From positions 868,001 through 932,000 of the forward strand of contig NZ_BCNB01000006.1 of assembly GCF_001485575.1 (NCBI RefSeq): a stretch of 64,000 nucleotides of DNA, read 5' to 3'. The stretch is from Haloarcula sp. CBA1127. Its GTDB lineage: Archaea; Halobacteriota; Halobacteria; Halobacteriales; Haloarculaceae. Shown here one piece after another: positions 6,871 through 58,124 of this stretch (its first letter is position 1; each line of letters begins with the position of its first letter). A program made the translations under genes and the position numbers. Below the pieces are notes generated by a model, which saw only the letters and a list, made by a program, of their open reading frames with translations, did not search any database and was not told where the DNA came from.

Positions 6871-7073
6871 ACCCACCCGTCTGCTGGCTGGCGCTAATAC
6901 CTTTGCAATCATTACTCATGCGCCTGCAAATAATTATAATCACTGCGCATACGCCTCTGGATATCGACGGGTCGGAATGCCAGACCATGCCACGCGAACG
7001 GCCGAATTTCGAGCAGTCACGGCCGTAGTGAAACACTATCCTTTTGACCCTGCTGTTGATAGAAAGCTGTATA

Positions 7074-9260
7074 ATGGGCCGACGTAAGAAAATCGTCCAA
7101 GAATGTGAGACACTGATGGACGATCCGGAGCACATCCGGAACATCGCCATCGCTGCTCACGTCGATCACGGAAAGACGACACTGACAGACAATCTGCTGG
7201 CCGGTGCCGGCATGATTTCCGACGACACCGCCGGCGAACAGCTGGCGATGGACACCGAGGAAGACGAACAGGAACGTGGGATCACCATCGACGCGGCTAA
7301 CGTTTCGATGACCCACGAGTACGAGGACCAGAACCACCTCATCAACCTTATCGACACCCCTGGCCACGTCGACTTCGGTGGCGACGTGACCCGTGCGATG
7401 CGTGCCGTCGACGGCGCGCTGGTGGTCGTCGACGCCGTCGAGGGCGCGATGCCCCAGACCGAGACGGTGCTCCGGCAGGCGCTCCGCGAGGGCGTCAAGC
7501 CGACGCTGTTCATCAACAAGGTCGACCGCCTCATCTCCGAACTTCAGGAAGGCCCTGAAGAGATGCAGAAGCGCCTGCTCGCGGTCATCCAGGACGTCAA
7601 CGACCTCATCCGCGGCATGACCGAGGAGATGGACGACATCGAGGACTGGACGGTCTCCGTCGAGGAAGGGACCGTCGGCTTCGGCTCCGCACTGTACAAG
7701 TGGGGCGTCTCGATGCCGTCGATGCAGCGGACCGGCATGGACTTCGGCGAAATCATGGAACTCGAGCGCAATGACAACCGCCAGGAACTCCACGAGCGGA
7801 CGCCGCTGTCCGACGTGGTGCTCGACATGGTGTGTGAGCACTTCCCCAACCCTGTCGACGCCCAGCCGATGCGCGTTCCGCGTATCTGGCGTGGCGACGC
7901 CGAATCCCAGCTCGCCGAGGACATGGCGATGGTCAACGAAGACGGCGAAGTCGTCCTGATGGTCACCGACATCGGTGTCGACCCCCACGCCGGCGAGATC
8001 GCCGCCGGTCGTGTCTTCTCCGGCACGCTGGAGAAGGGTCAGGAGCTGTACGTCTCCGGAACTGCGGGCAAGAACCGCATCCAGAGCGTCGGCATCTACA
8101 TGGGTGGCGAACGCGAGGAAGTCGAGCACGTTCCCGCCGGGAACATCGCCGCCGTCACGGGCCTCAAGGACGCCATCGCTGGCTCCACCGTCTCAAGCGA
8201 GGAGATGACGCCGTTCGAGTCCATCGAGCACATCTCGGAGCCGGTCATCACGAAGTCCGTTGAGGCACAGAACATGGACGACCTGCCGAAGCTCATCGAG
8301 ACGCTCCAGCAGGTCGCCAAGGAAGACCCGACCATTCAGGTCGAAATTAACGAGGACACCGGCGAGCACCTCATCTCCGGGCAGGGTGAACTCCACCTGG
8401 AAGTCATCGGCCAGCGTATCGAGCGCAACCAGGGCATCCCGATCAACACCGGTGAGCCGATTGTTGTCTACCGCGAGGCCCCGCAGGAAGACAGCCGCGA
8501 AGTCGAAGGTCGGTCGCCGAACAACCACAACCGCTTCTACATCAGCATCGAGCCGCTCGGCGAGGACATCGTCGAGACGATCAAGATGGGCGAGGCGTCG
8601 ATGGACATGCCGGAACTGGAGCGCCGTGAAGCGCTGCAGGAGGCCGGCATGGACAAGGACGACTCCCAGAACATCGAGCACATCCACGGGACCAACATCC
8701 TGCTTGATGAGACGAAGGGTATCCAGCACCTCAACGAGACGATGGAGCTCGTCATCGAAGGTCTCGAAGAGGCCCTCGATGACGGCCCGCTCGCGTCCGA
8801 GCCGGTCCAGGGGTCGCTCATCCGTCTCCACGACGCCCGCCTCCACGAGGACGCCATCCACCGCGGTCCGGCCCAGGTCATCCCGGCCGTCCGCGAGGCC
8901 GTGCACAACTCCCTCATCGACGCCAGTATCAAGCTGCTGGAGCCGATTCAGCAGGTCCGCATCGACGTGCCCAACGACCACATGGGCGCAGCGAGCGGCG
9001 AAATTCAGGGTCGCCGTGGCCGCGTCGACGACATGTACCAGGAAGGTGACCTGATGGTCGTCGAAGGCGTCGCCCCGGTTGACGAGATGATCGGCTTCTC
9101 CTCCGACATCCGCTCCGCCACCGAGGGCCGTGCCTCCTGGAACACCGAGAACGCCGGCTTCCAGGTCCTTGCCGACAACCTTCAGCCCGACAAGATCAGC
9201 GAGATCCGCGAGCGCAAGGGCATGAAGCAGGAACTGAACCCGGCCATCGACTACTTCTAG
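7074..9260 (+). CDS. fusA: Translation elongation factor EF-2
   Basis: A 728-residue archaeal EF-2 that drives ribosome translocation with GTP. Start [12 protein letters not shown]1 loop HVDHGKTT at about 29-36, switch region [12 protein letters not shown]3 [10 protein letters not shown] and G4 NKVDRL. The C-terminal domain has the diphthamide-site motif AIHRGPAQ, whose histidine is modified in archaea and eukaryotes. ATG at 7074 is chosen because archaeal EF-2 starts with this basic stretch; the in-frame upstream codons have no family match. The gene stands alone, ends in a T-run and is followed by the hairpin array described separately. Confidence 0.98.
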
Positions 9261-9264
9261 ACCA

Positions 9265-9272
9265 CCTTTTTC
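9265..9272 (+). terminator. T-rich terminator of fusA
   Basis: An uninterrupted T5 run follows the fusA stop codon within 12 bases. Archaeal transcription commonly ends at such oligo-T tracts without needing a hairpin. The hairpins downstream would then lie outside the main transcript. Confidence 0.6.
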
Positions 9273-9279
9273 CCGCTCG

Positions 9280-9494
9280 GGTGAGCGCTACGCGCTCACC
9301 TCTCGCGGCAAAAACGTGGTCTTGCTGAGCGGAGTCGTTCGAGGGGCGCAAGCGCCCCTCGTGATGACGAGAGAGCGAAGCTCTCTCGAACCACGAAGCA
9401 AGGCTCGAAAGACGAGCCCCGCGAGTCTTTCGGCGGCGAAAAAGGCGCGAATCGCTCCGCGATTCGCGGGAAACCGCGCGCCGTCGGCGCGCGG
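9280..9494. repeat. Array of six perfect short inverted repeats
   Basis: Six consecutive hairpin-forming palindromes occupy 215 bp: 9280-9300 (8-bp arms GGTGAGCG), 9341-9360 (8-bp arms GAGGGGCG), 9368-9388 (9-bp arms CGAGAGAGC), 9402-9418 (6-bp arms GGCTCG), 9446-9468 (9-bp arms CGCGAATCG) and 9474-9494 (10-bp arms CCGCGCGCCG). Loops are 1-5 bases and several centre on GCGAAGC- or GCGC-like cores. No convincing ORF covers the segment. It separates fusA from a convergent gene. Confidence 0.85.
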
Positions 9495-9547
9495 TATGCG
9501 TGTCCGCTCTGCTCTGTCTTATTGACTGCACTCAGACTTGTTTTCCG

Positions 9548-10654
9548 CTACTCTGCTTCTGTCTGCGCCCGTAATCGGTCGATTCGGTTCCCCAGCGGCG
9601 GCGATTTCGAGAACGGGTTCGCGAGTCGTCGTCGGGACGGCTCCATGTTGTGGACATCGGCGTATCGTTCGAGGGCGTCCGCGACGGTATCCGGGCCAAC
9701 GCGCTCGGCCGCGTAGTCGTCGGCTGCCCGGACACCGCGGCGAGTGACCCACAGGCTTAGGATGACGAGTCCGAGACTCGCGCCGACAAGGGGCCACAGC
9801 GGGCCAACGTCGGCCAGTGCCACGAACAGCGGAACTACTGCGACAAGCAGGCCACCGGCGACTCTGAGTAGTACCTGTGCCTCCTGACGACCCGCTTCCA
9901 CCGCAAGTAACGCCGTCGCAGTCTCGTCGTCGTAGCTGTCGAGGAACGTGCTCGTCACGAATAACCGTCGGTATCGGCCGAACCCTCGGATGGTTGCGCT
10001 CGCCGTCTCCTCCTTGTTAGTGTCGAGCACCCGGACGTCACGGACAGCTACCCCGGCGCGCTGTCTGAGCGAATCGAGCCGTTCGTCAGTCGCTTCTGCT
10101 GGCCTGTGAGTCGACCGTAATAGTGGGATATGCCACGGTGCTGTAGCAAGTACGGCAACAAAGAATACGACGAAGAGGGCAAACAGCGCAGTCGACCCGA
10201 GTCCAATTTCAAGCGGTGCGACGCCGACGGTCACCAACACGGACAATCCGAGGACGTACCGCCCCATCCGGACGAGCGCCCGGCCGGTCGTGAGTTCGAT
10301 GTCCCGGACGCTTCGGACGCCGCGAACGGTCGGCGCGTAGGCGATCAGTCCCACGACGCCTGCGGCGAGCAGTTCGGTGAACGTCGCCAGCAACGTTTCG
10401 ACTGCTCCAGTCCCTCCGCCGACCACTGCGTAGCCGAGTCCGACCAGCCGAAAGACGGCATACGACAGCAGGACGAACGGGAACAGGAGACCGAGGTACA
10501 ACTGCCGATATCTGGCGACGGGGTTCGAGAGCCGCTGTACGATTGCGCTTCCGAGCGCGCCGAGGACGATTCCGACGACGGCGAAGACTCCGACGAGGAA
10601 CACCGCCGCACCTATCGATATCGGTGATGACTGGAGGGCGTACACATACGACAC
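9548..10654 (-). CDS. M48/HtpX-like membrane protein, apparently catalytically dead
   Basis: A 368-residue integral membrane protein with helices near 12-35, 50-75, 90-108, 130-170 and 255-295. The layout, with a soluble stretch VRVLDTNKEETASATIRGFG before a helix and a DDETATALLAVEAGRQEAQ segment, follows M48 (HtpX-type) peptidases. Where the family has the zinc motif HExGH this protein reads VEAGRQEAQ, so the metal ligands are missing. It may be a pseudoprotease. GTG at 10654 is the only suitable start. Convergent with fusA, separated by the hairpin array. Confidence 0.65.
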   Translation of the reverse strand: MSYVYALQSSPISIGAAVFLVGVFAVVGIVLGALGSAIVQRLSNPVARYRQLYLGLLFPFVLLSYAVFRLVGLGYAVVGGGTGAVETLLATFTELLAAGVVGLIAYAPTVRGVRSVRDIELTTGRALVRMGRYVLGLSVLVTVGVAPLEIGLGSTALFALFVVFFVAVLATAPWHIPLLRSTHRPAEATDERLDSLRQRAGVAVRDVRVLDTNKEETASATIRGFGRYRRLFVTSTFLDSYDDETATALLAVEAGRQEAQVLLRVAGGLLVAVVPLFVALADVGPLWPLVGASLGLVILSLWVTRRGVRAADDYAAERVGPDTVADALERYADVHNMEPSRRRLANPFSKSPPLGNRIDRLRAQTEAE

Positions 10655-22640: not shown

Positions 22641-22686
22641 ACACGTCATCTTCCGATGACGACAGCCCCGCGACGGCGACAGCAGT

Positions 22687-22745
22687 CCTCGCGGGTCGCT
22701 TTGCTCCCCGCTCGGCGTTTTCGAGACGCCTCCCGGTGGTCGGCG
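22687..22745 (+). repeat. 59-bp direct repeat, copy 1
   Basis: Begins CCTCGCGGGTCGCTTTGCTC and ends GGTGGTCGGCG. It contains two potential hairpins (GCGGG/CCCGC and GGCGT/ACGCC). A second copy lies 83 bp downstream with a few substitutions in its middle. The segment lies between the SIMPL and NOG1 genes and has no ORF of note. Confidence 0.8.
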
Positions 22746-22769
22746 GTTTATTCAGATAACAATTACAGC

Positions 22770-22828
22770 CCTCGCGGGTCGCTTTGCTCCCCGCTTGGAG
22801 TCTTCGAGACGCCTCCCGGTGGTCGGCG
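22770..22828 (+). repeat. 59-bp direct repeat, copy 2
   Basis: Same length and ends as the copy at 22687; the central differences are C to T and changes in GGCGTTTTCGAGACGCC, here GGAGTCTTCGAGACGCC, which largely preserve hairpin pairing. This copy runs up to the NOG1 3' end. Confidence 0.8.
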
Positions 22829-57808: not shown

Positions 57809-57920
57809 GCTACTCGTCGCCACGGAAGTACCTGTTCCGGTGACTAGGACGGACCGACACAACAGTTAGTCGTTCAGGATCACAGCCATGAGTCACAGTA
57901 ACCGGAGATACAAAATCAGG

Positions 57921-58079
57921 ATGCCGCCTCCCGGATTGTGAACCAGAGGAAGACGGACCGCTCGCTTCGCTCGCGGTTGCGACTTCCAGGGTTCAAATCA
58001 CGGTCTGGTGCATGTCACTGCTCACCGACTCGGTCGCGTCGCTCTCTCGCTGGTTCGCAGGAAAATGCCGCCTCCCGGA
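57921..58079. repeat. Likely integration site: tRNA-3'-end-like sequence and 15-bp direct repeat
   Basis: ATGCCGCCTCCCGGA occurs at 57921-57935 and again at 58065-58079. Read on the minus strand, the first copy continues as GGTTCACAATCCGGGAGGCGGCAT, close to a tRNA T arm plus acceptor (canonical GGTTCAAATCCGGGAGGCGGC) with one inserted base. A plus-strand AGGGTTCAAATC near 57987 is a further T-loop-like piece. No complete tRNA can be built. The integrase starts 46 bp after the second copy. This is therefore the probable attL region. Confidence 0.55.
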
Positions 58080-58124
58080 CCTCAACTGGTGGTTTACATG
58101 CCTATATGACAACCCCCGATGTAG

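Follow-up and report, generated by a model that had tools for sequence, protein, structure and literature searches.

Behind the EF-2 gene fusA of Haloarcula sp. CBA1127, the window (the whole 64,000-nucleotide stretch of DNA that was analyzed) carries a three-layer stack of small, non-coding palindromic modules, the outermost of which, element P, is probably a mobile, mosaic, two-way terminator as well as a landing pad for other modules. The fusA region shows small mobile repeats nested in each other at gene ends; P repeats are present in most of the Halobacteria genomes sampled, at the ends of core genes, and are apparently unannotated.

Six hairpins behind fusA

The fusA open reading frame (7044-9260, plus strand), identified by its Pfam EF-2 domains, ends in a TAG codon at 9258-9260. 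The convergent downstream gene (9548-10654, minus strand) has no Pfam match, and its transcript would enter element P from the right. An inverted-repeat search recovered the six perfect hairpins that a preliminary description had reported; they fill 9280-9495 and lie at 9280-9300, 9340-9361, 9368-9388, 9402-9418, 9446-9468 and 9473-9495, with arms of 9, 10, 9, 6, 10 and 11 bp, respectively. Chance is insufficient to account for them, as that description had also held: none of 1000 dinucleotide-preserving shuffles of 9258-9500 gave six hairpins (mean 0.71, maximum 5), and across the whole 64 kb only the fusA-flanking region has at least five hairpins per 243 bp, the rest of the window being not comparable. 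A further outer arm pair of 18 bp encloses hairpin 1 (9259-9276/9305-9322, 89%). The arms do differ from hairpin to hairpin, as had been described, but the constancy of the linkers, the outer arm pair and the further genomic copies had been overlooked. BLAST located pieces of the hairpin region at several other places in this genome, some of them contiguous but lacking the middle portion of the window copy.

Element P occupies 9262-9499 (plus strand) and measures 122 bp when its inserts are subtracted; it begins 1 nt past the fusA stop codon, with its CCACC end adjoining that stop. The plan of the window copy is CCAC-C-TTTTT-hairpin-AAAAA-C-GTGG..AAAAAGG-hairpin-GNGAAACCGC-hairpin-GCGGTATGC, and the plan common to P copies aligned side by side is CCACC-TTTTTC-hairpin 1-AAAAACGTGG-GCGAAAAAGG-hairpin 2-GNGAAACCGC-hairpin 3-GCGGTATGC. 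The left part (9262-9319, plus strand) comprises CCAC, C, T5 (9267-9271), hairpin 1 (9280-9300), A5 (9310-9314), C and GTGG, and folds as one long hairpin (DNA fold z = −7.1 on the plus strand and −9.0 on the minus strand). The second A5, within GCGAAAAAGG (9436-9445, plus strand), is conserved across P copies and corresponds on the minus strand to a terminator-like T5C tract. Beyond it stand hairpin 2 (9446-9468, plus strand, arms CGCGAATCGC), whose arms differ at orthologous sites, and hairpin 3 (9473-9495, plus strand); the right end of P after it is TATGC, which reaches 9499. Linkers are constant between copies; arms are replaced wholesale yet remain perfect palindromes. This unusual rule, conserved linkers with changeable arms that must stay perfect, offers a test of palindrome upkeep and exchange in archaeal DNA.

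Modules nested within P

Relative to the fusA site of H. vallismortis, the window copy of P is 116 bases longer, the surplus lying between GTGG and GCGAAAAAGG. It consists of module D holding module B (9320-9435, plus strand), inserted in the P linker at this junction. A compact P copy without inserts also exists in this genome (C6:504185-504301). Module B (9334-9394, plus strand) sits in the loop of D's first hairpin; it is about 61 bp long here, with similar lengths elsewhere, and follows the plan GTCGTTCGA-hairpin-TCGTGATGACGA-hairpin-TCGAACCAC, its hairpins lying at 9340-9361 and 9368-9388. Its ends are inverted, GTCGTTCGA matching GTGGTTCGA (the reverse complement of TCGAACCAC) at 8 of 9 positions. 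The second half of D (9402-9432, plus strand) contains the hairpin GGCTCG..CGAGCC / CGAAAGAC..GTCTTTCG.

Module B was found in 50 of 79 genomes, with 0 control matches, and the D signature in 10 of the 79; both C and D have narrower distributions than B. In one clean pair of Haloarcula sites, filled (L253) versus empty (L252), B constitutes an exact 59-bp insertion with no target duplication, and another Haloarcula site pair differs by exactly one module C (60 bp). Judged by such occupied and empty sites in relatives, B, C and D show themselves to be insertions, and D and B evidently entered P later, B doing so without target duplication. The mobile palindrome family that had been offered as one reading of the hairpins is supported by these exact nested insertions, by the copies elsewhere and by the empty sites.

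The 99 distinct B modules comprise 198 hairpins, of which 176 are fully Watson-Crick. The two hairpin positions are filled by 27 and 34 arm sequences, of which 13 serve in both, and nine arms were found with a loop and also with its reverse complement. Arms shared between positions and inverted loops are what would be expected if hairpins are exchanged and inverted. At one locus (L268), an HtpX-like peptidase gene is broken up by an IS605-like palindrome end containing a B module; at two others, L233 and L081, hairpin 1 of P or its linker has received yet another module with two hairpins, GCAGCCCATCAGAA..TTCTGAGGACG.

P as a dispersed family

Family counts rest on pattern searches with reversed controls. 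The general P pattern (T5, 18-48 nt, A5, 5-9 nt, A5) matched 204 of the 242 Halobacteria genomes sampled, covering 72 of their 74 genera, with the reversed pattern near zero; some genera have few matches or none. Pattern searches place about 12 P loci on the main chromosome of this genome, and one relative has 56 raw matches against 0 for the control. A strict pattern stands right behind the fusA stop in 25 of 80 named fusA loci, ranging from Haloarcula to Natrinema; the loci without it include L017, L020 and L022. Five haloarchaeal plasmids have a match, in each case in an unannotated spacer, which added no further clue. The viral contigs and phage records searched gave no match, so that there is no sign of a virus-borne element. 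Together, the matches show P to be a dispersed Halobacteria family whose linkers are conserved and whose hairpin arms are exchanged freely.

Twelve P sites were compared across up to six Haloarcula genomes. At orthologous genes, hairpin 1 and the linker type of P often differ while hairpin 2 or 3 is identical, from which it follows that modules exchange separately. Sites lacking P include L231, L248, L251, L261, L263, L264 and L223-L226. The fusA gap itself, which had been proposed for inspection in relatives, has no hairpins in several of them and the same plan with other arms in many more; by sequence comparison the site shows three states, P with other arms, P without inserts (as in H. vallismortis) and no P.

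P as a probable two-way terminator

Gene calls at P loci were made from codon usage. The 57 P copies with genes on both sides are arranged ++ in 19 cases, +- in 17, -- in 17 and -+ in four, and in one of these last four a tRNA gene ends towards the element. Divergent contexts thus account for 3 of 57 copies versus 26 of 67 in the background, a small sample of gene gaps of at least 60 bp (p = 1e-5). In about 25 of 60 copies, CCACC stands 0-6 nt behind a stop codon. P is therefore shown, as far as gene calls allow, to be located at gene 3′ ends and often to abut the stop codon. The copies in this genome adjoin housekeeping genes: fusA, gyrA, ilvD, an isoleucyl-tRNA synthetase-like gene, kae1-bud32 and the genes for the DNA polymerase D small subunit, PAN, korB and a trkA-like protein.

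T5 tracts are present on both strands of P, and the next base is C in 78 of 144 copies on the plus strand and in 88 of 144 for the first minus-strand tract. Many haloarchaeal 3′ ends likewise have T5C and hairpins, and in Haloferax termination in vivo reached 95% when T5C was inserted (PMC7237163). From the T5 tracts, hairpins and position we infer that P terminates transcription. T tracts of the T5C type with hairpins on both strands, the placement at gene 3′ ends and the near-absence from divergent gaps are the grounds for taking P to be a mobile two-way terminator. On the plus strand, the T5 directly behind the stop codon of the left gene would end that gene's transcript; on the minus strand, two T5 tracts that come after hairpins 3 and 2 would stop transcripts arriving from the right. 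P could thus work as a two-way terminator or insulator, and 3′ ends may in addition be protected by its hairpins. The modules themselves contain no gene and would spread through recombination or a trans-acting factor; both the upkeep of perfect arms and their exchange, by hairpin swapping and inversion, would take place at the DNA level. On the terminator reading, P is a supply of natural two-way terminators for haloarchaeal genetics. Several points weigh against it: archaeal T-tract termination needs no hypervariable perfect hairpins, the strand bias of hairpin 1 (see below) is not explained by a symmetric terminator, no mobilizing enzyme has been identified, and the gene-end duplications beside some copies (see below) fall outside it.

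That the copies are ordinary terminators which arose independently at each gene, with convergent hairpins, would fit their function and position and the T5C tracts and hairpins at many haloarchaeal 3′ ends (PMC7237163). We give this explanation almost no credence, given that the long conserved linkers GNGAAACCGC..GCGGTATGC, AAAAACGTGGGCGAAAAAGG and TCGTGATGACGA cannot be convergent and that the nested insertions are exact.

One further P copy (L111, at about 334.6 kb of C6 in this genome) lies directly upstream of the putative promoter of the RNase P RNA gene, and occupies the same place in several Haloarcula.

Pairing and strand bias

The triplet before the T tract covaries with the triplet after the first A tract (CCA/TGG, GTA/TAC, CGA/TCG, GAA/TTC, GGA/TCC, GCA/TGC and others). 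At this foot of hairpin 1, 353 of 432 cells pair, versus a mean of 240 and a maximum of 268 in a shuffle that ignores kinship; despite the relatedness of copies, the eight different complementary triplet types argue for a real helix. Mismatches in P stems comprise 14 G-T and 22 A-C in about 1200 pairs, and those in B stems 5 G-T and 8 A-C in about 1800 pairs (P and B pooled, p = 0.15). As G-T and A-C are similarly rare, either the stems are kept at the DNA level or pairing matters on both strands.

These data bear on whether the region encodes a structured RNA, a 3′ UTR domain or small RNA under selection for RNA pairing, as the preliminary description had suggested among its readings. The folds are strong (z of −8.6 and −9.6 for the two strands), the helix foot covaries and the elements sit behind stop codons. 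Helices of a one-strand RNA should, however, show an excess of G-U, which the equal rarity of G-T and A-C contradicts, although the same mismatch pattern would be expected of RNA hairpins that have to form in both transcripts. Searches of Rfam at gathering and permissive thresholds gave no relevant family for the hairpin region, and the orientation of P relative to transcription varies. We accordingly regard a structured RNA as very unlikely.

Hairpin 1 is not symmetric. In 108 of 144 copies the better fold is that of the minus strand (p = 8e-15); tandem GA/GA mismatches favor the minus strand by 56:2, and GNA apical loops do so by 46:9.

Duplicated gene ends and possible recombination

About a quarter of P copies lie beside a gene whose 3′ end occurs twice. 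The order is the functional end, then a reversed P, then an older copy of the end that starts right after GGTGG from a variable point X, the P side of the junction (CCACC/GGTGG) being constant. In this genome (L099-L112, e.g., L109, L110, L103 and L100) the duplicated ends belong to gyrA, ilvD, the IleRS-like gene and a methyltransferase gene. Three ilvD duplications in different genomes have different break points. Inspection of the junctions by eye revealed no consistent microhomology motif, and the partner site X showed no consensus. Three origins were weighed for the duplicated ends, namely duplication of the target site, tandem duplication and the import of a gene end from a foreign source; none accounts for every case. 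Several P copies (L102, L104 and L111, and L238-L242 and L257-L260 in relatives) are followed downstream by another recurring unit, CCTGCCCTTCCCCGGGTCGC..GCTCCCGGCC.

The fixed-junction duplications point to a recombination role outside the terminator model and prompt the question whether an undescribed kind of recombination is at work. Of the recombination or replication-pausing zone that had been among the earlier readings, they keep the recombination part a possibility. P might be primarily a folded single-strand DNA site for recombination or transposition, with termination as a by-product. A recombinase would read the minus-strand hairpin (GA/GA, GNA loops and T5/A5 stem) and cut the GGTGG/CCACC foot, which would then be joined to unspecific sites, carrying gene 3′ ends along. 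The minus-strand bias of hairpin 1, the gene-end duplications with their fixed CCACC junction (about a dozen cases, those of this genome included) and the lack of G-U enrichment in stems agree with such a site. Against it stand the missing consensus at X, the lack of a candidate enzyme and of any Y1 transposase in this genome, and the avoidance of divergent gaps, which termination explains better. We consider this primary role unlikely. A bolder version, an undescribed class-wide haloarchaeal recombination system that would recognize the folded minus strand of P by its structure, cut the CCACC/GGTGG foot and join it to unspecific sites, thereby duplicating, exchanging and moving gene 3′ ends with their terminators, and would re-make arms as perfect palindromes by hairpin exchange, seems to us decidedly unlikely.

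Relation to known repeats

In the open literature searched on haloarchaeal palindromic repeats and RNA motifs, no description of P was found; the only relevant report concerns the PATEs and SMRs of Haloquadratum. PATEs are haloarchaeal elements whose palindromes resemble IS605 ends and which lack inverted ends, and SMR-A of Haloquadratum walsbyi (HqIRS42/43/55) is short (about 110 bp) and non-coding, with inverted ends and no target duplication, and inserts in palindromes of PATEs and IS605-type elements (PMC3119063). Module B is similarly short and non-coding, with inverted ends and no target duplication, and occurs within palindromes and beside IS605-type tnpB genes (L270, L278, L284). Unlike SMR-A, it combines constant linkers with two hairpins that vary freely, and it enters P and D as well; at about 61 versus about 110 bp it falls short of the SMR-A length, so that B works like an SMR but is not filed as a member, and it is set beside HqIRS42/43/55 by description rather than by sequence identity. 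Our best reading of B is that smaller SMR-like palindromes use P as a landing pad.

P shares with PATEs a short, non-coding, palindromic, intergenic and dispersed character, but differs in its T5/A5 linkers and its position at gene 3′ ends. An origin as remnants of IS200/IS605 elements, resembling PATEs or REPs and mobilized by a Y1 transposase (TnpA or RAYT), would suit palindromes without an open reading frame, the tnpB neighbors of B and the many PATEs of haloarchaea (PMC3119063). Yet PF01797 had 0 matches in this genome in a search that was positive in Haloferax volcanii, P has no IS605-like end, and the inverted ends of B are unlike PATEs; such an origin is therefore highly improbable. 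With no Y1 transposase in this genome, a resident IS200/IS605 or RAYT source was rejected.

P resembles haloarchaeal terminators (PMC7237163) in having T5C-type tracts right behind stop codons, with hairpins, but unlike plain terminators it is dispersed, has conserved linkers, looks active on both strands and is a target for insertions. We rate P, which matches none of the PATEs or small mobile repeats, as a mosaic palindromic repeat that probably doubles as a terminator. Bacterial BIME/REP and BOX elements are intergenic mosaic palindromic repeats near gene ends, in which the hairpin sequence is conserved. P is likewise an intergenic mosaic of palindromes near gene ends, but with the reverse pattern of constant linkers and variable arms, and no RAYT-type (Y1) gene is present in this genome. 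In integron attC sites, structure rather than sequence is conserved, the fold is strand-specific and the site is located behind stop codons. P is similar in all three respects, by analogy only, and no integrase link, cassette arrays or core site were found for P.

Other repeats in the window

Repeats at 22687 and 57960 had been suggested to belong to the same class as the fusA hairpins, but neither fits the P, B, C or D patterns. The first lies in a gene gap at 22683-22828, where a different unit of two hairpins, 63 nt long, is repeated in tandem (two copies, 94%). At 57918-58090, stretches resembling tRNA 3′ ends occur on both strands (GGGTTCAAATC, CCGCCTCCCGGATTGTGAACC) around a single palindrome; no intact tRNA was found there, and the stretches are perhaps integration remnants.
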